Origin: Bacillota bacterium
GTDB taxonomy: Bacteria; Bacillota; Sulfobacillia; DUSP01; JBFMCS01
Direction: 5' to 3'
NCBI GenBank assembly: GCA_040754315.1
Contig: JBFMCS010000056.1
Span: forward strand, 1-49,551
DNA: 49,551 nucleotides
Notes under the pieces: generated by a model
Databases searched by the model: none
Told to the model about the DNA's origin: nothing
What the model saw: only the letters and a program-made list of their open reading frames with translations
Part shown: in pieces, positions 17,132 to 47,541 of the stretch
Position numbering within the stretch: position 1 is the first letter of the stretch
How the letters are laid out: every line of letters begins with the position of its first letter
Translations under genes and position numbers: made by a program

Positions 17132-18649
17132 TTAGAACCTCATTCCAGTCTCCGTAGCGTCGAGCACTTCGGGGTTGGTCTTCCGGGTCAGCAGGCCTAC
17201 AATCACCATGGCCACGGCCGAGGCTATAAAGGCAAAGAAGCTGAAGTGGACTGGCAGTGGGGTAACGTACCGGTGTATGTAGCCAAATACCACGGCACCA
17301 GCCATCCCCACAACCATGCTGGCGATGCCACCTTCCCGGGTGGCTCCTCGCCAGTAAAGGCCCGCAAGGAGCGGCACGCAGTAGGTGGCGAGCATCAGGC
17401 CGATGCCCATCCAGATTAGCCACGCCAGGAGAGCCGGGGGGTTGATGGCAGCCACGAAGGAAAGCGCCGCAGCGATGAGCACCATCCAACGGCTGGCCGA
17501 CTTCACCTGGGTGTCTGAGGCGCCAGTGTGAAGCACGTTCTTGTGGATGTCCCAGCCGTAGAGGGTACCGGTGGTGAGGAGCAGGCGGTCCGTGGTGGAC
17601 ATCACCGCCGACAGCACAATCACGGCGAAGAGCGACTACACAGAAGCCGGGAAGGAGTGCTCGATGGCGGCCACTATGGCATAGTCCGGGTATGGCACCT
17701 GCAACACGCCGTCTGAGACCATTACCCTGGCCGCCAGGCCCGCCATCTTGATGAGGTAGAAGGCGACTATGTAGATGATGAAAGCCACCAGCGGCGCCCA
17801 CCTGAAGTAGGAGCTTCGCCTGGCCGCCAGCACGTTGTTGAGGGCGTGAGGTGCAGTGGCGAGTCCCAGCGCAAGGAGACAGAAAAAAGACACCAGGTAC
17901 AGCGGGGTCAGGAAGGCGTGACCTCCCAGGGGAGGGTGCACCTGGGGGTAGACCACGGCCACGAGATTGGGGTCTATGGAGGCGAGCTGGGCATTCACGT
18001 AAGCCATCCCACCAGCAGCCTTGAGAATGAAGGGTACCATGAGGATGCACCCTGCCAGGAGCGCTATACCTTGGAGCAGTGTAGTCTAGGCCACCGCATA
18101 CAGCCCTCCCAGAACCACATAAGCGGTGATCACGACCGCGGACAGCAGGAGGGCGTAAATATGGGGGATCCCAAAGAGCTAGGCCAGTACGATACTTATG
18201 GCACGGTACTGCCCGGTCAGGTAGATGAAGCTGATGATGACCCCGGCTGTGGCGGCCAGCGCCCTCATGGCCTTGGGGGATTCAAAGCGGTGAGCCAGGT
18301 AGTCCTGGACGGTGTTGTATCTCATCCTCCGAGAGACCCGGTAGATCTTGGCACCGAACAGGACCATGAGGACAGCGACGCTGAAACACACGAATATAGG
18401 TTCCCACATGCGGGGCCAGCCTACAATGTATGCCAGTCCGCTGGCGCCCAGCACCGTCATGCCACTCATGACGGATCCGACTATCAGGATCATGAATGCG
18501 AGGAAGCCCAGGTTCCGGCCGGCTACAACGTAGTCCTCGGCGGTCTTGACAAACCTCGAGGTTATTGCCCCTATGTACAGCATGGCAACGAAATAGGCTG
18601 CGACAACGAGCACCGTAATCCAGTACAGGTTCACCACTCCCTTCCACAC
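17132..18649 (-). CDS. sodium:solute symporter with three in-frame TAG codons
   Basis: From a GTG at 18649 (or GTG 18634) one frame runs about 505 codons to a TAA, broken only by TAG at codons 157 (18181-18179), 188 (18088-18086) and 338 (17638-17636). There is no TAA, TGA or indel. The rest is a normal SSS family protein (about 13 helices): EDYVVAGRNLGFLAF early, SAVMSTTDRLLL in the middle, LAWLIWMGIGLMLATYCVPL late. Codon 188 falls in the family motif AVxWTxxxQG (GLYAVA-TAG-TTLLQG), so Trp is expected; codon 157 (ISIVLA-TAG-LFGIP) also aligns with Trp from memory; codon 338 (FPASV-TAG-SLFAV) is less clear. Each is TGG to TAG if so. It could be a recent pseudogene, or UAG may be read through in this pyrrolysine-type organism. 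A terminator follows and a small partner gene precedes it. Confidence 0.75.
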
Positions 18650-18658
18650 AGGTTCCGG

Positions 18659-18766
18659 CTAGTCCCTAGGCTTGTAGCCAAGACCCCACACCGCCAGGAT
18701 CAGGGCCAGGGCCACAGGCACCAGGAACATGGTGTAGAAGGTCCCCGGTGGCAGACCCCAGATCAC
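18659..18766 (-). CDS. 35-residue membrane protein upstream of the symporter (small symporter partner)
   Basis: GTG at 18766 with a textbook Shine-Dalgarno (AAAGGAGGTG) opens MIWGLPPGTFYTMFLV..., one membrane helix ending in the basic tail LGYKPRD. Single-helix proteins of this size commonly precede SSS symporter genes in Bacillota and archaea and are thought to be accessory subunits; that role is inferred from position. It stops with TAG, and the codons after the TAG continue in the same frame into the symporter start, so readthrough would fuse the two. Confidence 0.7.
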   Translation of the reverse strand: MIWGLPPGTFYTMFLVPVALALILAVWGLGYKPRD

Positions 18767-18966
18767 GCACACCACCTCCTTTCTCCAGTGTTGCCGCCAC
18801 GCTGAGCCGGGCCGGCCAGACCCTCGCAAGCCTGTGTGAAGCCACCCTAACTCCCTGGAAGAATGAAAGAACGGCGCTGGCCTTCGTCCTTCCTGGCTCC
18901 TCCAAAGAAGGAAGAGGGAAAAGGGATCTAGAAGGTTAAGTCGATACTCTTGCAGGAACGGGAGTG

Positions 18967-27660: not shown

Positions 27661-29055
27661 TTAGCGGACCTTCGCCAAGTGAATGGGATGGCCCATGATC
27701 CCGTGACAGGCCTCCATGATAGCCTCAGGAAGGGTGGGATGGGCGTGGATCATCGTGGCGATCGCCTCCGCGGTACCGCCCAGGACTATCGCAATAGCGG
27801 CCTCATGGATGATCTCTGTGGCATGGGGGCCCAGGATGTGCATGCCCAGGAGGAGTCCAGTCTCCCCGTCCGCCACCACCTTCACCATGCCCTCAGCCTC
27901 ACCCAGTGCCACGGCCTTGCCGTTGGCAGAAAAGGGGAAACGGGACACCTTCACAGAGTACCCGGCATCCCGGGCGGCGCGCTCGGTGAAGCCGACGCTG
28001 GCCGCCTCAGGACTGGAGAACACGCACTGGGGCACAACCTTGTAGTCCATGTCGGAACCTGTAGAGAACATGTCCTCAACGGCGATGATACCCTCGCGAG
28101 AGGCCACTGGGGCCAGGTAGTACTTGCCCACAACGTCACCGATGGCATACACCCCAGCAAGGCTGGTCCGCATCCTGTTGTCAACCTTGATACCCTTGGA
28201 GTCATGCTCTATTCCCAGGGCAGCCAGGTCCAGGCCGCCGAAGTCCGGTACCCGGCCCATAGCGATGAGGACCTCTTCGGCCTCAAAGGTGACTTCCTTG
28301 CCCTCCTTGGTGTTGGCGATGACCCTCTTTGCCCCGTCGCCGGAGACCTGGATGTCCTTGATGAAGATACCGGCGTTGACCTTGATCCCCTGGCGCGCCA
28401 AGAGGGGCATTATCCGCTTGGAGAGTTCCTCGTCCACGGGTGGCAACACCAACGGGGACCGCTTGATGATGTCTATCTTGGTACCAAACGCCGCGTAGAT
28501 GCAGGCAAACTCCACGCCCAGTACTCCGCCGCCAATCACCAGCATGCTCTCGGGTGGTTTTGGGAGGCAGAGGGCTTCATCGCTGGTGATGGCCCGCCGA
28601 ATGGCAGCCTCGGGCACCGGTGGAAGTGCGTGTCCCGAGCCTGTGGCAATCAACGTGAACCGTGTCTCCAGCCGGGCAGCATCGGGGCCGCTCACCTCTA
28701 CCATGCCAGGCTTCGGTATGGAAGCCTTCCCCCGATAGCAGGTGATACCGTTCGAGGAGAACAGCTTCTCCACGCCAGTAACTAGGCGGTTCACTACCTC
28801 TTGCTTCCTCTGGATGACACTGGGGAAGTCTAGCTGGTACTCCTTCACCCTTACCCCATAACCCTCGCCGTTCACAATAGTCTTGTATGCCTCAGCGCTC
28901 TTCACCATGGCCTTGGTGGGGATGCATCCCCGGTTGAGGCAGGTCCCTCCAAGGTCCCTGGCCTCCACTACAGCCACCTTGGCTCCCAGCTGCGCAGCCC
29001 TGACCGCGGCCACATACCCGCCGGGACCACTGCCTATTACGGCTAGATCGAACAA
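27661..29055 (-). CDS. lpd: dihydrolipoyl dehydrogenase (glycine cleavage L protein)
   Basis: 464 aa flavoprotein disulfide reductase. FAD motif GSGPGGYVAAVRAAQ at the start, redox-active disulfide in GGTCLNRGCIPTK, NAD motif GGGVLGVEFA near 180, FAD-binding aspartate in YAIGDVVG and the C-terminal His-Glu pair in HAHPTLPEA. The TTG at 29055 follows GAGGAGGGAG and gives MFDLAVIGSG; the longer frame overlaps lipM. Reoxidises dihydrolipoyl-GcvH. Last of the glycine-riboswitch operon. Confidence 0.95.
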   Translation of the reverse strand: MFDLAVIGSGPGGYVAAVRAAQLGAKVAVVEARDLGGTCLNRGCIPTKAMVKSAEAYKTIVNGEGYGVRVKEYQLDFPSVIQRKQEVVNRLVTGVEKLFSSNGITCYRGKASIPKPGMVEVSGPDAARLETRFTLIATGSGHALPPVPEAAIRRAITSDEALCLPKPPESMLVIGGGVLGVEFACIYAAFGTKIDIIKRSPLVLPPVDEELSKRIMPLLARQGIKVNAGIFIKDIQVSGDGAKRVIANTKEGKEVTFEAEEVLIAMGRVPDFGGLDLAALGIEHDSKGIKVDNRMRTSLAGVYAIGDVVGKYYLAPVASREGIIAVEDMFSTGSDMDYKVVPQCVFSSPEAASVGFTERAARDAGYSVKVSRFPFSANGKAVALGEAEGMVKVVADGETGLLLGMHILGPHATEIIHEAAIAIVLGGTAEAIATMIHAHPTLPEAIMEACHGIMGHPIHLAKVR

Positions 29056-29867
29056 TTGACTCCCTCCTCGGCTTGCCGGGCCTCGTTCCAAGCCAGGTTC
29101 CCGTACTTTTTCGCTTCAAGACGGAGGCTCAGTTCTTCTTCTTCCCTTGTCAACTCGCCATAAACCAGCTCTATCCCCAACCCCTTTTCAAAACCCACCC
29201 GGAGGGCCTCTTCTACCTCCTGGGGTTCCGGCACTCGCCCCAGGGCCTCCTCCAGATCAATAGCCCTTGCGCTGAGCACTCGCCCTAACCTCATGGCTGC
29301 CTCAGCATCATGGGTGAGTACAGATGAGACCACTTGGGAATCAAGCCTCAGGGGTAGTGAACCATGCTGCAAGAGGGCCTCCCACTTCCTCACCTGAGCG
29401 CTTCCTATCGCCTTTCTGCCATTGACGAGGATCTCCTGGACCGAAGAAAGGTCAAAGCAGGCAGCGGACAAGCCGCTATGGCGCCGGCCTGGGGCTAAGG
29501 TCGCATCCGCCCCTAGGTACCTGTAGGCCTCAAGCAAGCCCCGGCTGAGATAGACGTAGGACTGGATGACGCTCTCGGGGACGTGGGTTGTGGCCAAGCA
29601 CACGCTGTAGGTCACCTCATGGTGGTGCACTACAGCCCTGCCGCCCGTGGGCCTCCTGACAACGTCCAGGCCCCTCCTCTGGCACTCTTTGAGATTCACC
29701 TCCTCATATCGCTGGAAGTATCCCAGTGATACACAAGGGGGATCCCATTTGTAGACCCTGAGGGTGGGAGGTGCTTCTCCCCTTCCCACAATCCTTGCGA
29801 CAGCCTCATCCACGGCCATGTTGCGCCTGCCAGTAGAGGCACCGTGGCTAATCAGTCTCCAACGCAT
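29043..29867 (-). CDS. lipM: LipM-type octanoyl transferase (lipoate-protein ligase fold)
   Basis: 274 aa BPL/LplA/LipB-fold protein. The start is the ATG at 29867 (MRWRLISHG), inside the end of the preceding radical-SAM gene; the longer frame upstream is not coding. Family marks: RRPTGGRAVVHHHEVTYSV and the LipM-type ACFDLSSVQEILVNGRKAIGSAQ with C137 as the likely acyl-carrying cysteine and K152. LipM moves octanoyl from acyl carrier protein onto GcvH. With two lipoyl synthase-type genes just upstream, this gives complete de novo lipoylation of GcvH. A lipoate ligase role is the alternative. TAG stop. Confidence 0.85.
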   Translation of the reverse strand: MRWRLISHGASTGRRNMAVDEAVARIVGRGEAPPTLRVYKWDPPCVSLGYFQRYEEVNLKECQRRGLDVVRRPTGGRAVVHHHEVTYSVCLATTHVPESVIQSYVYLSRGLLEAYRYLGADATLAPGRRHSGLSAACFDLSSVQEILVNGRKAIGSAQVRKWEALLQHGSLPLRLDSQVVSSVLTHDAEAAMRLGRVLSARAIDLEEALGRVPEPQEVEEALRVGFEKGLGIELVYGELTREEEELSLRLEAKKYGNLAWNEARQAEEGVNCSI

Positions 29868-30834
29868 GGCACCCGGTACCCAGCCTTTCCAGAACCAGCC
29901 GCACAGCCTCGTCACGCTCAAGAGCGGTGAGCGGTCTTGGGTAGTTGAATAATGGCCCGCGAGGGCTCTCGTTGTAGTAGGGCCTGTTGCATGAGTCACA
30001 CCCCGTGGTCCTGAAGGCATCGCCTTTGCCCAGCGCCAGCCGGGTGCCACCCGGCGAAAGCCCGAGGCTTGCCAGGCGCCCCTCTTGGAAACTCATGTTC
30101 TCCACCCTAACCGAGCCAGACCTCAGAAGATGTGTTGCCGCCTGTATGATGCGGTAGCTGGCCAGATCTGGCCTTTCCCAGGATTCCATGGGTGTCCCCT
30201 TTACCGGAGTGAAGGCAAAGAGGGCCACAGTTATCCCCTGGTCCGCCAGGGCCTGGAACTGCCGGAGCATTTCCTCCTCAGTCTCGCCCATTCCCGCGAT
30301 GAGATGGGTGCTTATCCGGCCAGGGAACTCCTTGGCGACCCGGGCTAGCTCCTCCAGGGCCATGGCCGGGTCCTGGGCCTTAACCCTCCTGTAAAGGGTG
30401 GGTGTTGCCGCGTCCAAGGGGAGCCCCACCCGGTCTGCACCAGCCTCTAGGGCCTCCCGTGCCAGGCGGGCCTTGGGAAGGGCGGATACCGAAATGGGCA
30501 CGCTTGAGGTCTTCCTGATCGCCGCCACAGTCTCAAGGAGCACGTCCCAAGACCCCGGGGAGAACACAGACTGCAGGCACACCCGCCCTATAGTGCCCCG
30601 CTGGTAGGCGTTTCTAGCCTCGGCGACGACCCGCTCCCTTTCGAATGCTGGCCAGGTAACCCTTGACAGGAGATCTGCCTTGGACGCCGACACCCTTGCC
30701 TGGGGACAGAAGGCACAGGACTGGGAGCAGCCCTCACCCACCAGAAGGTAGGCCGTAGTAGGCTTGCACTGGCTCTGAGCCCCGTCCAGCCTTAGTACCT
30801 CCGCGGTTCCTGCGGAAACCCCTATCCTGGTCAC
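29848..30834 (-). CDS. radical-SAM protein, LipS1/LipS2-type lipoyl synthase component
   Basis: 328 aa. Radical-SAM cluster motif CSQSCAFC at about residues 34-41, then a BioB-like TIM barrel (ISTHLIAGMGETEEEM) and late cysteines in TTGCDSCNRPYYN that could bind an auxiliary cluster. Two such proteins side by side, coupled by GTGA, and placed between gcvPB and a LipM gene match the split lipoyl synthase LipS1/LipS2 first shown in Thermococcus, where one inserts sulfur at C6 and the other at C8 of octanoyl-GcvH. No classical LipA is in the window. I cannot say which of the pair is LipS1. A GTG at 30852 is a possible earlier start. TAG stop. Confidence 0.75.
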   Translation of the reverse strand: MTRIGVSAGTAEVLRLDGAQSQCKPTTAYLLVGEGCSQSCAFCPQARVSASKADLLSRVTWPAFERERVVAEARNAYQRGTIGRVCLQSVFSPGSWDVLLETVAAIRKTSSVPISVSALPKARLAREALEAGADRVGLPLDAATPTLYRRVKAQDPAMALEELARVAKEFPGRISTHLIAGMGETEEEMLRQFQALADQGITVALFAFTPVKGTPMESWERPDLASYRIIQAATHLLRSGSVRVENMSFQEGRLASLGLSPGGTRLALGKGDAFRTTGCDSCNRPYYNESPRGPLFNYPRPLTALERDEAVRLVLERLGTGCHALETD

Positions 30835-31652
30835 AGGCAGCAACACTCCCACTTCTCGCTGACTTCAAACCCGTTCTCCATAGCCAATCTCAGCGCGGGC
30901 GGGCTCGGATTCACGATCTCGTCGATGCCCTCGCGCAAGGCCATGGTGTCCAGATCTGACCGGTACCTGGTACCCGGTCGCATGCACCCCAAGGACAGAG
31001 TAGCACTGGGAAGCCCTGTTCTCGCCCGTAACACCACCCTCTGCACCTCTTTCAGCGGGGGCGGCTCAGCGTCCCCGTATCGCGTTCCCCTGGTGGGAAT
31101 GAACACCAGGAGCACCAGGTGCTCCACACCCTCTCGCTTGAGGAAGTCCAGCACCCGGTACTCGTGGCCCAGGTCGCCCCCCCGGAGGCCGATGCAGAGG
31201 TGGGGCACAACCCTCACGTGTTGCCTCAGGGCCAGGTAGGCATCCTGGTAGGCCCGGGCGCCCCTCTGGTGACCGTATACCTCACGCACCGTATCATCGT
31301 CCCCTACCATGTCCAGGGAGACCACATCGACCCGGCCTGCTATGGCCTGGGCCTCCCGAGGCCCGGCGAGCCCTGAATGAAGGTTTACCCTCCCCAGTTC
31401 GCGCAACTGCTCCAGGAGAGGGAGGTGTTCCATAAAGGGCACCGTCCCTGGCGGGTCGCACCCGCCGCTCACCAGCACGCTGGATGCCCTACCCTCCTGA
31501 AGCGCCCTGACTGCCTGTCCCGGGGAGCTCATGTGCCTAAGGTAGTGCCCAGCACAGTGAGCGCAGCCCATGCGACACTCTGACCCGGTAAGGCTCGCTG
31601 GCAACGTGCGCTGGGGGTACACAAAGGCCACTTGTCGACTGGAGCCGGTCAC
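30831..31652 (-). CDS. radical-SAM protein, second LipS1/LipS2-type lipoyl synthase component
   Basis: 273 aa. Starts at GTG 31652 behind GGGGGAAG; the open frame reaches 100 codons further but only through non-coding frame over the end of gcvPB. Radical-SAM motif CRMGCAHC near residue 28, a TIM barrel with LVFIPTRGTRYGD, a later Cys in LGCMRPG, and a closing WECCCL whose cysteines could bind an auxiliary cluster. Overlaps the next radical-SAM gene by four bases. Biotin synthase-like annotation would be the automatic call; context supports lipoyl formation on GcvH. Confidence 0.75.
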   Translation of the reverse strand: MTGSSRQVAFVYPQRTLPASLTGSECRMGCAHCAGHYLRHMSSPGQAVRALQEGRASSVLVSGGCDPPGTVPFMEHLPLLEQLRELGRVNLHSGLAGPREAQAIAGRVDVVSLDMVGDDDTVREVYGHQRGARAYQDAYLALRQHVRVVPHLCIGLRGGDLGHEYRVLDFLKREGVEHLVLLVFIPTRGTRYGDAEPPPLKEVQRVVLRARTGLPSATLSLGCMRPGTRYRSDLDTMALREGIDEIVNPSPPALRLAMENGFEVSEKWECCCL

Positions 31653-31749
31653 GTCTCTTCCCCCGTTCCTTGTTCGTCGCCCCGGGGGGAAGGGAGCAGG
31701 CTTGCCCCGCTCCCTGTCCCCACTTGGAGGCTTGCCCAGCGAATCGACC

Positions 31750-33201
31750 CTAGCCGTTCCAGCGAAGGTCCGGCTGCCGGGCAGCTCTTGCCTCATCCAG
31801 GCGGCCCACAACGGTGGCATGGGGTGCCGCCTTGACCATATCGGGGTTCTCCAGGGCCTCACTGGCGATATCCAGCATGGCCTGGATGAAGTAGTCCATT
31901 GTCTCCCTGGATTCGGTCTCCGTGGGCTCCACCATGAGCGCCTCATCAACTATGAGGGGGAAGTACACGGTGGGTGGGTGAACCCCATAGTCCAGGAGCC
32001 GCTTGGCGATATCCAGGGTCTTTATACCTGTATTCTCCTTGATCCTCTTGGGCATCACCACGAACTCGTGCTTGCAGTGGCGGTCATAGGGCAGGTCATA
32101 GGCGCTCAGGAGCTTCCGCATCACATAGTTCGCGTTGAGCACGGCATTCTCGCTGACTTCCTTGAGGCCCTGAGCCCCCAGCATCCGGATGTAGGTGTAT
32201 GCCTTCACCATGACGCCAAAGTTCCCATAGAAGGACCTTACCCTGCCTATGCTTTCGGGCATGTCGTAATCCAGGTAGTAACGGCCATCCTTCATCCCCA
32301 CGATGGGCACCGGCAAGAACGGCGCCAGCTCCTTGGTGACTCCCACAGGGCCCGAACCGGGACCCCCACCGCCGTGGGGCGTCGAGAAGGTCTTGTGGAG
32401 GTTGAAGTGGACCACATCAAAACCAGCGTCCCCGGGCCTAGCCAGGCCCATAATGGCATTGGCGTTGGCACCGTCGTAGTACAGCAAGCCGCCAGCCTCG
32501 TGGATCATCCGGGCTATCTCATGGATGTTCTCGTCGAACAAGCCCAGGGTGTTGGGGTTCGTGAGCATGAGCCCCGCCACGTCGTCGTCCAGTACCTTCT
32601 GGAGTTCCTGGAGGTCCACTCCTCCCCGCTCATTGGACTTCACCTCAACGGTCTTATAGCCACACATCACCGCTGAGGCCGGGTTCGTGCCGTGAGCGGA
32701 ATCAGGGATGATGATCTTGCTCTTCTTCTTCCCGTTCTTTTCATGATAGGCCCTGAATATGAGAAGCCCTGTGAGCTCACCATGTGCTCCCGCGGAGGGC
32801 TGCAGCGATACCGCGTCCACCCCGGCAATCTCCGCGAGGTACACCTGGAGCTCGTACAGCATCTCGAGGGCCCCCTGGGAAGCCTCCTCAGGGGCGTAGG
32901 GGTGAAGGTCGGCAAACCCTGGAAGGGTGGCCGCCTTCTCGTTCACCTTGGGATTGTACTTCATTGTACATGACCCCAGGGGGTAGAACCCCACGTCCAC
33001 GCCATGGTTCAGCTGGGACATCTTCGTGTAGTGCCGGACCACATCAACCTCGCTCACTTCAGGTAACTCGGGCGGGCTCGCCCTGAGTGCACCCCGGGGA
33101 AGCAACTCATCCTTCGACTTCATCGGCACATCGCACTTGGGCAGGGTGTAAGCGGACCGCCCCGGAGAACTCATCTCGAAGATGAGGGGTCTCGTTTTCA
33201 T
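31750..33201 (-). CDS. gcvPB: glycine dehydrogenase (decarboxylating) subunit 2
   Basis: 483 aa, PLP subunit of the heterotetrameric P protein. The Schiff-base lysine lies in [18 protein letters not shown], preceded by [14 protein letters not shown] protein decarboxylates glycine and passes the aminomethyl group to lipoyl-GcvH. ATG overlaps the gcvPA stop (ATGA). Ends in TAG with 97 bp to the first radical-SAM gene. Confidence 0.97.
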
Positions 33202-34538
33202 GCCAATCCCTCCAATGCCGCCACAAGGCGCTCAATTTCCTGGCGAGAGCGCTTCTCGGTGACGGCCACCAGAAGCCCCTCAGAGTACTCCGGATACCAG
33301 CGTCCCAGGTCCACGCCGGGGAGAATGCCCTTCTTGACCAGGTCCTTGATGATGGAGGACGGAGATACTGGGCACTTCACAGCGAACTCCTTGAAGAAGG
33401 GCTTCCCAGGGATGAGCGGCTCAAAGCCCTTCACTGAACCTAGGGAATCCATGGCGAAGTGGGCCTTCTGCAGGCACAGGTTTGAAACCTCCTGAATGCC
33501 CTGGCGGCCCATGGTGGCCAGGTAGACCGTGGCTGCCAGCGCGTTCAAGGCCTCGTTGGAGCAGATGTTAGATGTGGCCCTCTCGCGCCTTATGTGTTGC
33601 TCCCGGGTTTGCAGGGTCAGCACGAAGCCTCGCTGGCCCCGCACATCCAGGGTGGTGCCAACGATCCTTCCTGGCATCCTCCGGACAAACTTCTCCTTGG
33701 AGGCAAAGAAGCCAAGGTACGGTCCACCATAGCTCAACGGGTTACCCAGGGCTTGGCCTTCACCCATTACGATGTCAGCGTCATAGTCGCCCGGGGCTTT
33801 GAGGACCCCAAGGGAGATGGGGTCTACCGCTACCACGAAGAGCGCCCCCGCGTCGTGGGCGATCTTGGAGATGTCATCAACGCTTTCCACAACCCCTAGG
33901 AAGTTAGGCTGTTGCGCCATGACACAGGCGGTCTCGCCATCCACCATGCGTGAGAGGGCCTCAAGGTCCGTGGCGCCATCCGACATGGGCACCTCTTGCA
34001 CAGGGATCTCCACGGCCTTGGCATAGGTGGCCAGCACCTCACGATACTCAGGGTTTACTGCCCGGGACACCAGGACCTTGCGACGGCGGGTACTGGATAC
34101 TGCCATTAGGGCGGCCTCCGCCAGGCTGGTCGCCCCGTCGTACATCGAGGCGTTGGATACATCCATGCCCGTAAGCTGGCAGATTAGGCTCTGGTACTCG
34201 TAGATGGACTGGAGCACCGCCTGGCTCACTTCCGGCTGGTAGGGGGTATAGGCAGTGTAGAACTCCGAGCGGGAGGTAACGTGCCCTACGACACTTGGAA
34301 TGAAGTGGTCGTAGGCCCCCGCTCCAGCAAAACATACCAAGTCGTGGAGGTTCCGGCCCGACATTTCATGAAGAAGGTTCAGGGCGTCCAGTTCCGAGAG
34401 GGGCTCGGGCAGGTTCATGTTGCCCTTGAACCGGACTTCATCAGGAATATCCGCGAAGAGTTCATCTATAGACCGGACCCCGATGGTCTCCAGCATGATC
34501 TTCCGGTCCCTGTCGGTGTTAGGAATAAACCCGCCCAT
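33198..34538 (-). CDS. gcvPA: glycine dehydrogenase (decarboxylating) subunit 1
   Basis: 446 aa, the partner subunit of GcvPB. Family features: [26 protein letters not shown]-like stretch (here [17 protein letters not shown]), [18 protein letters not shown] and [20 protein letters not shown]. The ATG at 34538 overlaps the gcvH stop (TGATG). Two-subunit P protein is typical of Gram-positive and archaeal systems. Confidence 0.97.
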
Positions 34539-34924
34539 CAGTGTTCTTCCTCGCTCGCGTGTTTTTCGTAGGCCTCCACATCTAGGAGGTTATCCAGCTC
34601 CGCCATGTCCTTGATCTTCACCGCCATGATCCAGCCCTCGCCATACCCATCAGTGTTGATGAGGTCAGGCTGGGATGCTAGGTTCTCGTTGACCCTGACT
34701 ACCTCACCGCTGACCGGGGAGTAACAGTCAGAGACAGCCTTCACCGACTCCACCACACAGAAGGCCTCGCCCTGAGTCACCTCGCGGCCAACCTCGGGGA
34801 GTTCCACAAAGACGATGTCTCCCAGGTGGTCCTGGGCGTAGAAGGTCAGCCCTACGACTCCCTCGTGTCCCTCCACACGGATCCATTCATGGGTCTTTGT
34901 GTACTTGAGGTCCTTTGGATACAT
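34538..34924 (-). CDS. gcvH: glycine cleavage system H protein
   Basis: 128 aa lipoyl carrier. The lipoylated lysine is in VVESVKAVSDCYSP (about residue 62), and the fold frame KYTKTHEWIRVEG / PDLINTDGYGEGWI is standard. It shuttles the aminomethyl group between P, T and L proteins. ATG three bases after the gcvT stop, behind GGAGGCG. Confidence 0.98.
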   Translation of the reverse strand: MYPKDLKYTKTHEWIRVEGHEGVVGLTFYAQDHLGDIVFVELPEVGREVTQGEAFCVVESVKAVSDCYSPVSGEVVRVNENLASQPDLINTDGYGEGWIMAVKIKDMAELDNLLDVEAYEKHASEEEH

Positions 34925-34927
34925 TCA

Positions 34928-36034
34928 TCACGCCTCCTTTGGTCTTCTGTAGAACGGGAGTTTGGTAATCTCGGCGCGGAGATCCTTGTCCCTTACCCGT
35001 ACCATTATTTGCTGCCCAACCTGAGACACTTCCACCGGCACGAAACCAAGACCTAGATTCTTGCCAAGGGTTGGGGAGAAGGAGCCCGTTGACACATGGC
35101 CCACTTCCTTGCCGTCTTTTACTATTGGGTAGCCTGTCCTGGGGATACCCCGGTCCACCATGACGAAGCCCACCAGGCGCCTCTTGGGGCCCTCAGCGGC
35201 CGTCTTCGCCAGGGCATCCCGGCCAACGAATTCCTTGGTCAGGTCTACGAAGCGTTTTAGGCCTGCCTCCAGCGGGCCAATCTCATCGGTCATCTCCTGC
35301 CCGTACAAGGGCATGGCCGCCTCGAACCTCAGGGTATCCCTGCACCCGAGCCCTGCAGGCACTACTCCCAGCGGTTTGCCCGCCTCGATTATGCTGTCCC
35401 ACAGCACGGGTGCGTCCTTGGGTTCGCAGTAGATCTCAAAGCCGTCCTCCCCCGTGTAACCGGTCCTGGAAACCAGTGCCCTTTTTCTGGCCACCTCCAC
35501 ATTGTCCTTGAAGTAGTAGTACCCTATGGAGCCCAGGTCCTCCGAGGTAAGTTTCTGCATCGTAGCCACGGACACAGGACCCTGTATGCACAGCTCCGCG
35601 GTTTCCTTGGAGATGTTGGCGACCTTCACATCGGAGAAGCCCCTGGCAAGCTCGCTGATCCACTGGTAGTCCTTCTCAATGTTGCCCGCGTTGATCACCA
35701 GCATATAGTGGTCCGCTGACAGGCGGTAGACAAGGAGGTCGTCCACTACCCCGCCACGCTCATTGCACATGGGGGAGTACCGCACCTGCCCGTCACCCAT
35801 CGTGGCGATCCGGTTAGTCAGCGCCTTCTCCAGGAGTCCGGTGGCGTCCCGGCCCCTAATGTCCAACTCGCCCATATCGGATACGTCGAACAGGCCACCC
35901 CTCTGCCTCACTGCATGGTGCTCCTGGATGATGCTGCTAAACTGAACCGGCAACGCCCACCCCTCGAAGTCGATGATCTTCCCCCCGTACTTCAAGTGGG
36001 TCTCGTATAGAGGGGTTCGCTTTAATCCTATCAT
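34928..36034 (-). CDS. gcvT: glycine cleavage system T protein (aminomethyltransferase)
   Basis: 368 aa. Tetrahydrofolate-binding enzyme releasing ammonia and methylene-THF from the H-protein intermediate. LPVQFSSIIQEHHAVRQRGGLFDVSDMGE holds the N-terminal signature; the catalytic Asp lies in GLFDVSDMGE-type context, and GYTGEDGFEIYC and the C-terminal beta-barrel domain (FVMVDRGIPRTGYP) follow. ATG behind GGAGGTG. First gene of the operon and directly downstream of the glycine riboswitch. Confidence 0.97.
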   Translation of the reverse strand: MIGLKRTPLYETHLKYGGKIIDFEGWALPVQFSSIIQEHHAVRQRGGLFDVSDMGELDIRGRDATGLLEKALTNRIATMGDGQVRYSPMCNERGGVVDDLLVYRLSADHYMLVINAGNIEKDYQWISELARGFSDVKVANISKETAELCIQGPVSVATMQKLTSEDLGSIGYYYFKDNVEVARKRALVSRTGYTGEDGFEIYCEPKDAPVLWDSIIEAGKPLGVVPAGLGCRDTLRFEAAMPLYGQEMTDEIGPLEAGLKRFVDLTKEFVGRDALAKTAAEGPKRRLVGFVMVDRGIPRTGYPIVKDGKEVGHVSTGSFSPTLGKNLGLGFVPVEVSQVGQQIMVRVRDKDLRAEITKLPFYRRPKEA

Positions 36035-38568: not shown

Positions 38569-39951
38569 TTAGCCCAGGAGAAGACGGCTCCGGTTAACGC
38601 AATTGATCTCAATTCCCAGTAGCTTTGATATCTGGAACTTAGCCTCCAGGCCCCTGGCGTACCCGTGCACCGAGCTCACCAGCCCCAGGTTCAGTTCCCT
38701 TCTCACGTCGTTCATGACGGCCTCGTCGGTGAGGTCCCTGATACTCACCTTGAGCCTGCTGGCCACGTACTCCTTGGCCTCCCCCAGCTTCACGCCGCGA
38801 GCCATCTGCATCCGGGCTACCAGATCTCCAGCGGCCCGGACTCCGCCCATACCCGCAGCCATTGAGTGAGTTATCGCCATTCCCAAGGGATCCCCCATGC
38901 CTACCTACAGCCCATCCATGCCTCCGATTTCAGCCAGGGCCACCGACACCCTGGAGACAGCGTCAGGGCAGGGAACTTCGTGCATGGGGATCCCTCCGAC
39001 ACCCATCCCCACGTTGGCGTGGACTGGGATGCTAGCCGCCGAAATACAGGCCTTGGTGTAGGTGACTGCCCTGGAGAGGTTCCATGCCAGGGACTTGGAG
39101 GTGTTGGTGTTGATGGCCGGGCCGAAGATGGTGCCACCTGCCTTCTCCACCAGCTTCACCTGCTCGTGGGGGCGGAGCCCTGCCAGGCGCACACCCTCGT
39201 AAAAGAGTTCCCCGTGCATGCCCAGGACCGTCTCTCCAGCCATCCCCACCTCGATGCACATGCCCGGGTATGTCTTCTTCAGGGTTTCCACGGCCCTTAG
39301 GGTTGCCAGGAAGTCACCGTCCCCGGCGGCCCCCGTGGTATCGAAGTTCACCCCGTCAGCCCCAGCCTCATACATGCGCAAGGCCACGTACACCATGTCC
39401 TTAATCGCCAGTTCCACGGTTTCCTCCGTGCATTGCCTGGCCTCGGCTATCCTACCCTGCGGGAGGAGTTCCGCCGGGTTAGACACTGGGCCGTCAGGCT
39501 GAGTGTAAAGGCCCAGGTTGGGCATGGCTCCGTAGAACAGGGGCAGGACTGTGCAGCGCAGCGCATCCTCCATGTCGTGCTGTTCTTCGTGGACTATCGG
39601 TTTCACAGGCTTATAGCTGTAGTCCAAGTGTGAGAGTTCTCCCGTATCGGCACCCATGAGTCTCTCGTAGATCTGCAGGGATGAAACCCTGCCCGAGGGA
39701 ATCCCCAGGCGCATTATCTTGTTGGTGCCCCCGTCATAGGTGAGCACAACCTCCTTGCCCCGCTCCACGCAAACGAACTTGGCCGGCATAGTGCAAATCT
39801 CGTAGAGCCTGGCCATGTCATCCTCTGTTAGCGGAGGGATCCGGCCCTTGACGGCGGCATCCTCGGTACCTGCCCGGATATCACTGGCAATTTCCTCTGC
39901 GGTCATTTCCCCAAGGTACCCGTCGCCCATCCTTATGGTTATCATTCCCAT
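38569..39951 (-). CDS. mtbB: dimethylamine:corrinoid methyltransferase MtbB with in-frame TAG (pyrrolysine)
   Basis: Read through one TAG (38907-38905, codon 349) the frame gives 460 aa and ends in TAA. The family is unmistakable: ELGHIDYSYKPVKPIV is close to the archaeal text (here ELSHLDYSYKPVKPIV), as are LFYGAMPNLGLYTQPDGP, GADGVNFDTTGAAGDGDF, GPAINTNTSKSLAWNL and NVGMGVGGIPMHE. The TAG lies in GGMDGL-TAG-VGMGDPLGM, where Methanosarcina MtbB carries pyrrolysine in the active site. Downstream, RAAGDLVARM and GEAKEYVASRL complete the C-terminus. Transfers a methyl group from dimethylamine to the MtbC corrinoid protein. A strong sigma54-type site precedes it. Requires pyrrolysine genes elsewhere; termination at the TAG would remove the active site. 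Confidence 0.95.
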
Positions 39952-40069
39952 CCGTTCCCACGCGACCTCCCTTCTTTATTCGATCACTGCTATAACGATG
40001 CTGGGTTTGTGTAGCCTGGATAGAGCCCGTCAATACAGGACCCTTGAAGGAGCGTTATCAACCGTCGCA

Positions 40070-42327: not shown

Positions 42328-44292
42328 TCAGAAGGGGGGTCTTCCCATGGCCGTCAAGGTAATGGACCACTGCACGAATACGCTGCCCCCAGTGCCTGTC
42401 CTGAACACGCACTCGTCCTCATCTTCCATCTCCACGGCGGGTTCTGGGGCCCCCGCGGCGATGGCCAGGTCCTTCACGTAGCGGCGTCCCTGCTCGATGG
42501 GCGTAGGCCTTGGCCTCTGCCAGTCCCTGCACAGCATTCCTACCCCAGGGACCGTGCACCCAGAAGTCCCCCTCCCATGTCCCCTGCTGCACCAAGACCT
42601 GGACCCTCTCGATTACGTTGGCAAAGACTGCGCCAGCTGCCCCTGCCACTGAAGCGTCACTGGGGATTTCCAAGTGGGCGTGGAGTTTCTGGGCAATCCG
42701 GGGGAAGTAGGCGGATACTGGGGCCCCTATGGCCACAAGGGGTAACCTGGGGGCTATCTCGAAGGCCAGATCCCCCCTGCCATCATCCTTGAGAGCCCTG
42801 GACAGTAGCAGTGCCGTGGAAGGACACGCCTGGAGGTCGGAAGCCTCCTGGCCAAGCTCATCGGAAAGCAGCTTATAGCAGTGGTGGGACGCCATCTTCC
42901 GGGCAACCTCATCCAGGATTACTTCGCACAGGTCCTCCGGGCTGACACGGAACCGCTTGGCCTGCAGGGATACCCCGAGCCGGGCCGCCTCTACTGACCA
43001 TGGGCAGTATTTGTTTGTCACGTGGAGCACATCCGTGGGGGTTAGCGATGCCCTGGCAAGGTAGCCCAGGCGCACCAGCCGGTCAAAGGGCAAAAGATCA
43101 GCATCCTTGAAAAAGGCCCGGCTGAGCCTGTACATTGACTTGGGCCCTTCACCCAGGACAGACAGGAGTTCCTCCTCTTCGGGGGTAAGCGCAATACCGG
43201 GCTTTGCCAGTTTCCACAGGAACTCGGTGGGCTGGTGCAGGGCGGGGCTTTAGCCAGGGTCCTGGGCTATAATCCTGAGTTCCTCCTCTACCCCGGAGTC
43301 CTGGCAGCCCATAAAGGAAAGCGGCATCGCCCTGCGAGGCCCTATCTCCAGGGCTCCCTTCCTGCTAAGCCAGATCTCGCTGTCCCCGCCAAGACCTATG
43401 GTATGGATATCAGCTGCCCTCACCCGGGTGCGCCAGCCGCCTATGACAGCTCCATCTGGGTTTACCTTAGGCTTTCCCTTCTTGACCACACCCAGGTCTG
43501 AGGTAGTACCGCCTATGTCTACTACAATGGCATCCCCCTGACCGGTAAGGTGTACGCCCCCCACCATGCTGGCGGCAGGCCCCGAGAGTACTGTCTCGAT
43601 GGGTTTCTCCCTGGCCGTTGCCGCGTTCATGGGGCTTCCGTCCCCACGTACTATCATCAAGGGCGCGCGGATCCCCATCTCCCCAAGAGCAGCCTCAACG
43701 GCCTGGACTAGCCGGTCTAGCACGGGAATCAGCGCTGCGTTCAAGCAAGCGGTGATGGACCGTCCTGGAAGCCCAGCCGTATGGTGAGGTCACACCCGCA
43801 CACCACTGGACGGGGGCAGATAGAGGCAATTATGGACTTGATCTCTTTTTCGTGAGAGGGGTTTCTCACACTCATGTACCCGGACACCGCGAAGGCCTCA
43901 ACCACGCTTGCCATCTCTAGCACCTCGCTGGCGGCGGCATCGCGGTCAAGGGGCTCGACCTCTTCCCCGTGGACATCATGGGCACCAGGGATGACCCTGA
44001 CAACGTCAGTGGGGAGATCGTTTCGAAGTGGCTTACCCAGGAGAAGAAGGCCAACCTTGCCACCCTTCCCCTCCACCACACTGTTTGTGGCCAGGGTGGT
44101 GGACAGAGATACCATCCGCACCGAAGATGGGGCAGGAATCTGAAGGCAGCGGATGCAGTCGAGTATGCCGTTGAGCAGGTTGCCATGAGTGGTGAAGGAT
44201 TTGGCCTTGGACAGAATGGTCTTACCGGCAAAGTCAAAGAGCACACCATCGGTATAGGTGCCCCCAGTGTCAATCCCCAAGCCTAGATTCAC
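42328..44292 (-). pseudogene. hydantoinase/oxoprolinase-family (HyuA-like) ATPase, broken
   Basis: Starts with a good GTG at 44292 (LGIDTGGTYTDGVLFD, the phosphate-binding N-terminus of the ASKHA-type fold). Frame one ends at 43741, but the protein clearly goes on in another frame (ITACLNAALIPVLDRL), so there is a frameshift near 43765. An in-frame TAA at 43252-43250 follows (QDPG-TAA-SPALHQPTEFL). A second frameshift near 42510 moves into the last 60 residues (IEQGRRYVKDLAIAAG to the TGA at 42330). Three lesions make it a pseudogene unless assembly errors are involved. Such ATPases often accompany corrinoid methyltransferases and may help activate the corrinoid. Probably in one unit with mtbC. 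Confidence 0.8.
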
Positions 44293-45490: not shown

Positions 45491-46112
45491 GTGAAGGGCA
45501 ACGGTCCGGCCGGATTGCCTGCCACCTCAACTTACTGCCTGACCAATGGGGCTGATACTGTGAGGGACACCATTGACCTGCTTTTTGTCCTCGCTTATCC
45601 TGCAATACTCATGGCAATAGGGTTCGTTGCGACCCGGCGCCAGAAGAACCTGGAGGACTATCTCATCGGAGGAAGGAATGTGGGCTGGTTCGTAGTGATG
45701 ACCAGCTGGCTTGCCTCCTGGGTGGGTGGCGGATCCACCCTGGCCACCGTCAACAACGCCTACAACATCGGGCTTTCCGCCTTCTTGTATCCTCTTGCCA
45801 TTGCCGTTTCCCCTCTTTGGTTTCACGTCTCCCGGCACGTGTTCCGGGTAGGTGACCGCCTGAAGCAAATGGCCTTCCCGGACGTAGTGGAGGATCGCTA
45901 CGACACACGGTCGCGAGTGGTTGCCGCCATTACTACTTTCCTTGCCTACATCGCTTACACCACGGGCTAGATGGCCGCCGCGGGAACAATCATAGCGGTA
46001 TAATGGGCTGGGACGTGATCACCAGCTTCTGGGTAGCAGCCATCGTAGTCATAGTCTATACATCGGTGGGAGGGTACCTGGCCGTTGTCTTGACCGACTT
46101 CGTACAATTCTG
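45491..46112 (+). pseudogene. sodium:solute symporter, 5' part only, truncated by an IS element
   Basis: A second SSS family gene. GTG at 45491 (or 45560) opens a frame with EDYLIGGRNVGWFVVMTSW, ASWVGGGSTLATVNNAYNIG and ending YTTG before a TAG at 45968-45970. The same frame goes on (MAAAGTIIAV) to a TAA at 46001; the protein then continues one base off (MGWDVITSFW ... GGYLAVVLTDFVQFW) up to the IS boundary at 46113. So it has a nonsense codon, a frameshift and an IS truncation and is dead. The position of the TAG may originally have been Gln. It lies beyond the mtbC control region, divergent from it, so it may once have imported methylamines or betaines. Confidence 0.85.
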
Positions 46113-46126
46113 GTAACTATTCAGCC
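46113..46126 (+). repeat. left terminal inverted repeat of the IS66-type element
   Basis: GTAACTATTCAGCC, perfect reverse complement of 47789-47802. It falls directly after the TGG codon of the truncated symporter (VQFW), which fixes the insertion boundary. Confidence 0.8.
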
Positions 46127-46139
46127 CATCCGGGCAAGA

Positions 46140-47097
46140 ACCAGGGGGGCATGCAGATTTCCTCATTTCGGGGACGGGGTGAGCGGGCGGGTCCAGTGTT
46201 TGACGGCGGCCCGCAGGGAGGTATCCCCTGGTGCGGTGGGTGGAGACTTGCGGCGCTCGCGTCCCGCTGGTTCGGGTGCCGCGGGGTTGGAGGAACGGCT
46301 GGCCCCGGAACCCGGCTTCCCGCGCCGCCAGGAGTGGGTAGCCCCGCTTGCGCACGGTCGAGATGTAACCGCGAATGCGGCAGAATGCCGCGCACCAGCC
46401 AGGCTCCGGAAGGTACCGGGGATCTTCTGCTGCACCTTAACCATGCGCAGGTCGCGTTCCACCATTTGTTGTCGAAGGGGATGCGGAAGTCGTACATGAA
46501 GGCCAAAACCGCAGGGCGGTGTTTTTCCAGTCGCTCAAGGAGGTTTTGGGCCTTGGTCTTCTTGGGTCGCCCGCGCTGACCTTTCTGGCGGTCAGGCGTT
46601 GAAGGGTTCTGGGCCCATCCGCGGCTGAGCACCTGGCATTGTGCGGGTTCCAGGTGACTGGTACGGTTACGGGTTTGCTCCACCATTGACTTGATCTCAA
46701 TGAGGAGATGGATCATCTCCTGGGCCCAGCTCTGGCCCTGTTCGGCGAGGGCGGTGAGTTCCCTGAGGTGGTGGGCGCCCGAGAGGGCGTGGTGGACTTT
46801 GGGGTAGGAGAAGTAAGGGGACCAGGCATCGTGGACAGCTGTGCCGATGGAACCGGATAGGATGCCCATCTCATCCAGGGCGGGGCGGCCGCGTCTGGGA
46901 TGCGGGGTGTAGATGGTCTCTGTAGCAGTGCTGGCGGCATGCAGCCGATAGAGCCGGTCGCCGATACGGATACCGGTCTCGTCGCAGTGGACCACGGGGG
47001 CCTGGCGGATCTGCTCCCTGGTCGCATCCTCTACTGGCGCCAGGCGATCCGCGAGGGCACTTCCCCGAGGGGTGATGAGGAGGGGCCTGGGGGTCGT
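46140..47097 (-). pseudogene. IS66-family transposase remnant
   Basis: Recognised from APVVHCDETGIRIGDRLYRLH (DDE domain start), SYPKVHHALSGAHHLREL and, one frame over, VERDLRMVKVQQKIPGTFRS with GA, the IS66 C-terminal signature. The frame shifts near 46450 (after FRIPFDN), and the N-terminal 150 or so residues are missing, replaced by the fused ISXO2 fragment. Confidence 0.8.
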
Positions 47098-47541
47098 CGA
47101 GCACTGGGCAAGACCCTGGTCGCGGTCGAGCTCAAAGCACCCCATAGTTACGGGCGTCGTCGGCTCGCGACCGTGGCGGATGCCAGTGCTGCATTGCTGC
47201 AAGGATTCGTACGTGCCAACGTGGAGCGAGGGTCGGTGATTATCACCGACGGCTGGCCAAGATACATGGTCTTGGTGAAAACCGCGAGTACAAGCACAAA
47301 TCGATCAACATCTCGAGGTCCAAACGGAAGGCTCACGAGGAACTCCCTGCCGTCCACCGGGTTGCCGCACTGTTGAAGCGTTGGCTGCTCGGAACTCACC
47401 AGGGCTCAGTCGCTCCGGAACACCTCCAAGCCTACCTGGATGAGTTCACCTTTCGCTTCAACCGGCGCACATCACGAAGCCGCGGCCTACTGTTCTATCG
47501 CCTACTCGAAGGCGCTTGCTGCAAAGCCTCCAACATATGCT
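47082..47541 (+). pseudogene. ISXO2/IS1595-family transposase fragment
   Basis: Plus strand: GKTLVAVELKA, RLATVADASAALLQGF and GSVIITDGWPRY give the DDE domain of IS1595-type transposases. After YMVLV the protein continues one frame over (GENREYKHKSINISRSKRKA, LPAVHRVAALLKRWLLGTHQ, LDEFTFRFNRRTSRSRGLLF). Start and end are missing. Confidence 0.8.

Follow-up and report, generated by a model that had tools for sequence, protein, structure and literature searches.

The window analysed here is an entire contig of 49.5 kb, belonging to a 2.92-Mb, 65-contig genome that has a GC content of ~60% and contains sporulation genes. The features of the window that bear on the analysis are listed in Table 1. 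The central one is a gene for a sodium:solute symporter (SSF), which is located on the minus strand; an earlier note on this DNA gave no strand, and nothing comparable is present on the plus strand of the same interval. When the minus strand is read from 18649 to 17132, 505 codons precede the final TAA, and the only internal stops are the three TAG codons at positions 157, 188, and 338. As the earlier note had described, no TAA or TGA precedes the final TAA in this reading, and full-length alignment to the orthologues revealed no indel or frameshift. Its figure of about ten further normal TGG codons was likewise correct (exactly ten were counted). The GC3 value is 0.73–0.79 in every segment delimited by the TAGs. 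The genes downstream of the symporter gene are spoIIIA genes, and a microprotein gene lies directly upstream.

Table 1. Features of the 49.5-kb window discussed in the text
Feature	Position	Strand	Description
Sodium:solute symporter (SSF) gene	17132..18649	-	GTG start, TAA stop, 505 codons, three in-frame TAG; PF00474, E 4e-49
TAG codon 157	18179..18181	-	Trp in 59/64 orthologues, otherwise R, H; end of predicted helix 127-159
TAG codon 188	18086..18088	-	Trp in 58/64 orthologues, otherwise M, Y; within predicted helix 163-211, AVxWT motif
TAG codon 338	17636..17638	-	Trp in 51/64 orthologues, otherwise S, A, G, Q; start of predicted helix 335-373
Single-TM microprotein gene	18659..18771	-	~37 aa; GLPxxT ... 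WxLxY; start assigned by eye
Glycine cleavage genes	29043-36034	-	gcvT, gcvH, gcvPA, gcvPB, with lipoate ligase and radical-SAM protein genes; near the MtbB gene
MtbB gene (pyrrolysine-type dimethylamine methyltransferase)	38572..39975	-	One internal TAG at 38907-38905; PF09505, E 1.5e-197
HyuA-like (hydantoinase/oxoprolinase) pseudogene	42419-44292	-	Frameshift and in-frame TAA at 43252
Second SSF gene, broken	45491-46116	+	TAG at 45968, frameshift, truncation
IS66-type transposase remnant	46117-47202	-	Adjoins the broken second SSF gene

The symporter has the Pfam SSF domain and a predicted LeuT-type fold (mean pLDDT 90), the nearest solved folds being SGLT1/2, CHT1, and SiaT. It shares this domain, the fold, and the conserved core motifs with PanF, PutP, vSGLT, CHT1, and SiaT but belongs to an uncharacterised subfamily, and every equivalog cut-off of NCBIfam was missed. 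No close paralogue is present in the same genome; because the next SSF protein is at most 34% identical, the symporter has no backup copy.

Scanning of contigs with the window protein itself yielded no orthologues, and searches of relatives and of the class yielded only paralogues with ~30% identity. A phylum-wide search identified one uninterrupted orthologue with 67% identity, in Firmicutes bacterium UBA5435 (hereafter, the sister), and a scan using the sister sequence identified 74 loci, many of them in Methanoculleus, Methanocalculus, Methanothrix, and several uncultured phyla. The subfamily is common in Methanomicrobiales and Methanotrichaceae. The symporter is patchily distributed, and in the 153 other genomes of its class that were searched it has no counterpart at >35% identity. 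The 64 full-length orthologues among the 74 loci served as the comparison set. The alignment of codons 157 and 188 with Trp, claimed in the earlier note, was recovered in this set and extends to codon 338 (Table 1). Codons 157 and 338 had temporarily been regarded as non-Trp sites on the basis of distant SSF paralogues, which are variable there, and this assignment was dropped after the 64 orthologues were aligned. Because Trp occupies all three columns in most of the orthologues, all three TAGs probably arose by TGG→TAG changes, as the earlier note had proposed on the basis of codons 157 and 188. The sister has W, Y, and W at the three positions, and its codon corresponding to 188 is TAT, so that a history via a Tyr intermediate is possible at this codon. 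Conservation of TAG in orthologues, one of the marks of a pyrrolysine protein and the check suggested in the earlier note, was not found: no internal stop, and hence no retained TAG, occurs in any of the 64 sequences, a set with no close sister genome in it.

The organism decodes pyrrolysine, as the earlier note had supposed. Contig C43 carries a gene for tRNA-Pyl with the anticodon CUA (detected by ARAGORN) just before pylS, whose C-terminal domain scored 345 bits in a profile search. These are followed by apparent pylB, pylC, pylD, and pylSn genes and a TAG-bearing mtbB gene, the pylB, C, D, and Sn assignments being made by reading the translated ORFs of the operon. The genome contains four MtbB genes, each with one internal TAG, and roughly 26 full-length MttB homologues, two of which carry TAG at the same family position; this set of MttB genes suggests a broad repertoire for the demethylation of quaternary amines. 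MttB-family genes are found on C52, C27, C49, and other contigs (L011–L025), and several of them form one cluster on C52. One MttB gene with two apparent internal TGAs (L019) was discarded as a candidate for the reading of TGA as Sec or Trp, one of the TGAs falling on the start boundary. No second tRNA with the anticodon CUA was seen among 41 Rfam hits and the ~40% of the genome scanned with ARAGORN. As tRNA-Pyl is the only CUA tRNA among those scanned, pyrrolysine is the likely residue to be inserted if the UAGs of the symporter mRNA are translated.

TAG is also a common terminator in this genome, ending 204 of the 538 long ORFs (38%), and, together with the presence of the Pyl genes, this means that UAG must carry two meanings. 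Internal stops were surveyed by homology in 1.47 Mb, about half of the genome sampled in stretches, of which 0.69 Mb was under homology. Since shadow ORFs on the antisense strand gave rise to hundreds of spurious interior stops in an initial tblastn survey with all ORFs, it was redone with best-frame filtering. Interior stops were then few, the clear cases including the canonical MttB TAGs, and no other intact-looking gene with an internal TAG, methylamine methyltransferases aside, was found in this half of the genome; as perhaps half of the genes sampled are represented in the reference set, further cases may exist. A general excess of TAG, which a coding-potential scan had suggested for stops with no start nearby, was also considered and rejected: according to Pfam, four of the strong TAG matches were the known MtbB and three newly recognised MtbB genes, and most of the others were gene boundaries.

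We give a probability of roughly 0.5 to the reading that the three UAGs are inefficiently decoded as pyrrolysine and that the gene thus specifies a hypomorphic, pyrrolysine-dependent transporter. Three Trp codons would have mutated to TAG in a cell possessing tRNA-Pyl and its synthetase, and these mutations would have been near-neutral, UAG being a partly suppressed, ‘soft’ stop, with no selected gate involved. Once the pyl machinery is switched on, the three UAGs would be decoded as pyrrolysine at modest efficiency. In Methanosarcina acetivorans, an introduced UAG gives 20–30% of full-length, Pyl-containing product in the absence of any special element (PMC2933860); at this rate per UAG, the yield of full-length transporter over three UAGs would be only about 1–3% with an active pyl operon and close to nil with an inactive one, and it is this low yield that would make the symporter hypomorphic and pyrrolysine-dependent. 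Its synthesis would in turn depend on methylamines. The outcome would be a little full-length transporter with three Pyl residues, and selection would still act on the entire reading frame. Leaky decoding is argued against by this low yield, by the normal use of TAG as a stop in this genome, and by the uniqueness of the symporter TAGs, which are shared by no orthologue and have no counterpart in a comparable intact gene within the half of the genome that was surveyed. The earlier claim that the UAGs can be read and render the transporter conditional on pyrrolysine is supported in so far as the organism decodes Pyl, the TAGs lie at Trp sites, and constraint is kept, but its purposeful component is not: nothing was found to indicate that ‘UAG-gated uptake’ evolved as a means of control, since no TAG is shared with orthologues and the sites have no special context in common. 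It is a more doubtful, though conceivable, extension that a working bacterial transporter with three pyrrolysines is made only when pyrrolysine is supplied, in which case UAG would serve as an ordinary, substitutable codon at Trp-tolerant sites outside the methylamine methyltransferases and uptake would be coupled to the pyrrolysine supply.

A competing explanation, only somewhat less likely than leaky decoding, is that the symporter gene is a very young pseudogene, which remained under normal selection until recently, lost its use, and acquired three chance TGG→TAG changes before any other damage. Premature stops are indeed a mark of pseudogenes, and in-frame stops usually reflect decay. The HyuA-like gene and the broken second SSF gene in the window, as well as a gene near position 40094 of C49, all contain stops and are pseudogenes; the last (L085), a paralogue of C27:76434-77747, combines a TAG at a Trp codon (TGG→TAG) with a frameshift. 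Moreover, the patchy distribution of the symporter and its absence from the other genomes of the class imply that its loss should be tolerable, and another SSF gene not far away, at 45.5 kb, has already decayed. However, a frameshift is present in each of these three pseudogenes; recognisable pseudogenes of this genome thus carry indels, and the symporter gene, with three stops and no indel, stands apart from them as the exception; frameshifts, deletions, and insertion elements, all of which mark pseudogenes, were not found in it. As a separate observation, the segment at 46319-46823 on C51 contains three in-frame TGAs relative to its paralogue at C51:63525-64838 and is probably a decayed copy.

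The constraint on the reading frame provides evidence against the loss of the gene. Of the 96 columns at which the other 63 sequences show no variation, one is changed solely in the window gene and one solely in the sister. The numbers of changes found only in the window gene and only in the sister were 4 v 4 at columns with ≥95% conservation, 15 v 17 at those with ≥80%, and 27 v 30 at those with ≥60%, and the change counts were similar across all four segments between the TAGs. A model of decay, in which neutral mutation proceeds up to the third nonsense change with the count of the sister as the baseline, predicts far more missense changes, so that the observed pattern is unlike such decay: so few changes have a p value of 0.004–0.015 under neutral decay and of 0.33–0.74 under normal constraint. 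Apart from the TAGs, the symporter therefore evolves like its intact, 67% identical sister, with no sign of decay. The relaxed selection that the earlier note had named as evidence against use, which is also a mark of pseudogenes, was seen neither before, between, nor after the TAGs. Conversely, two marks of pyrrolysine proteins are present, i.e. homologous coding sequence on either side of each in-frame TAG and purifying selection beyond it, with no excess of changes over the sister in any segment. Because these counts span the lineage since the split from the sister, they are also compatible with a very recent loss, and the fresh pseudogene mentioned in the earlier note is thus still a live alternative: a gene whose function had been lost very recently, through an unlucky series of steps, would give the same picture.

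The identity of the stops also bears on these two explanations. From the codons of this gene, the p value for all three stops being TAG is about 0.11–0.14 (about 0.13), and that for all three being TGG→TAG is about 0.001–0.03 over seven mutation models; both argue against a young pseudogene, although all p values given here depend on the choice of gene and are optimistic, because the symporter was picked for being striking. Of the ten conserved Trp columns, those with TAG are the three of lowest conservation (0.92, 0.91, and 0.80 v 0.98–1.00; p = 1/120), as would be expected if another residue were inserted and only tolerant sites survived. When all 13 Trp codons are counted, including three non-conserved ones, the p value is 0.07, and this pattern is thus supporting evidence only. 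Among the 13 Trp codons, a GCC-TGG context occurs only at codons 157 and 188 (p = 0.04). A Dcm-type mutational hot spot at these two codons (CCTGG methylation) was considered and rejected, as no C5 cytosine methyltransferase (PF00145) was found. No special sequence context common to the three symporter sites, or to the MtbB/MttB sites, was seen.

Three further explanations are much less probable. A suppressor or near-cognate tRNA might insert tryptophan or some other standard amino acid at the UAGs, which would yield a normal transporter; the ancestral Trp at all three sites and the TAG at Trp in the C49 pseudogene accord with this idea, but CUA was found only in tRNA-Pyl, the single tRNA-Trp seen among the scanned tRNAs has the anticodon CCA, no Trp suppressor tRNA appeared in the same searches, and suppression of this type would give no preference for Trp columns of lower conservation. 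It is slightly less probable still that the TAGs result from assembly or sequencing errors or from a mixture of strains in the assembly, as might be suspected from its 65 contigs and an estimated contamination of 3.6%, since three separate G→A errors, each creating a TAG at a Trp codon, are unlikely in an otherwise clean gene. Equally improbable is a split gene whose fragments, re-initiated at in-frame start codons such as those present after the second and third TAGs, assemble into a working transporter: the segment 158-187 is too short on its own, and the TAGs at codons 157 and 188 lie within or at the end of predicted transmembrane helices. To our knowledge, there is no precedent for a split transporter reassembled from fragments re-initiated after stops.

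The symporter differs from the pyrrolysine proteins that accompany it in the genome. In the methylamine methyltransferases in general (MtmB, MtbB, and MttB), the position of the single TAG is fixed, and the residue that it specifies is conserved and catalytic. The symporter gene resembles these genes in having in-frame TAGs in a genome with a pyl operon, whereas its TAGs lie at Trp columns, are unique to this genome, and are unlikely to be catalytic. A closer parallel is Thg1 of M. acetivorans, which, according to the work of Heinemann et al. (2009) as cited in PMC2933860 and PMC8211752, contains a dispensable Pyl acquired by neutral evolution, its TAG lying at a dispensable position that is readable through general Pyl suppression of UAG. 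In both cases, a non-methyltransferase gene of a Pyl organism has acquired in-frame TAG and has homologues that lack it. Thg1 is, however, an archaeal soluble enzyme with one TAG, in which Pyl has been physically detected, whereas the symporter is a bacterial membrane transporter with three TAGs and is known from sequence alone. In ordinary bacteria, genes with in-frame stops that are otherwise undegraded and under purifying selection (dN/dS below 1) are reported to be common, the stops being partly read through (PMC7918605); those genes mostly have single stops of any kind and no dedicated decoder, in contrast to the symporter gene, in which all stops are TAG and for which a UAG-decoding tRNA is present in the genome.

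A wider question is whether, in pyl bacteria that end many genes with TAG, UAG is leaky enough for other genes to drift into its use. The symporter represents a natural test: it combines three UAGs, each at a site that was ancestrally Trp throughout the family, with an otherwise undamaged reading frame. Should it be translated, drift would be a route by which pyrrolysine reaches ordinary proteins of bacteria, and genes of this kind would be wrongly annotated as pseudogenes by automatic pipelines; should it not be, it would mark how recent a pseudogene may be and still resemble a recoded gene.

The microprotein gene directly upstream likewise terminates at a TAG, which lies 9 bp before the GTG of the symporter gene and in the same frame, and readthrough of this TAG would fuse the two proteins. 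No match to the microprotein was found in Pfam or NCBIfam. In both bacteria and archaea, most of the symporter orthologues inspected have a small protein of this type encoded ahead of them, its gene lying just upstream of the symporter gene at loci L169 (the sister), L170, L171, L173, L174, L175, L177, L178, L184, L194, L200, L208, and L239. The microprotein may be a small accessory subunit and bears a loose resemblance to MAP17 of the human SGLT complexes.
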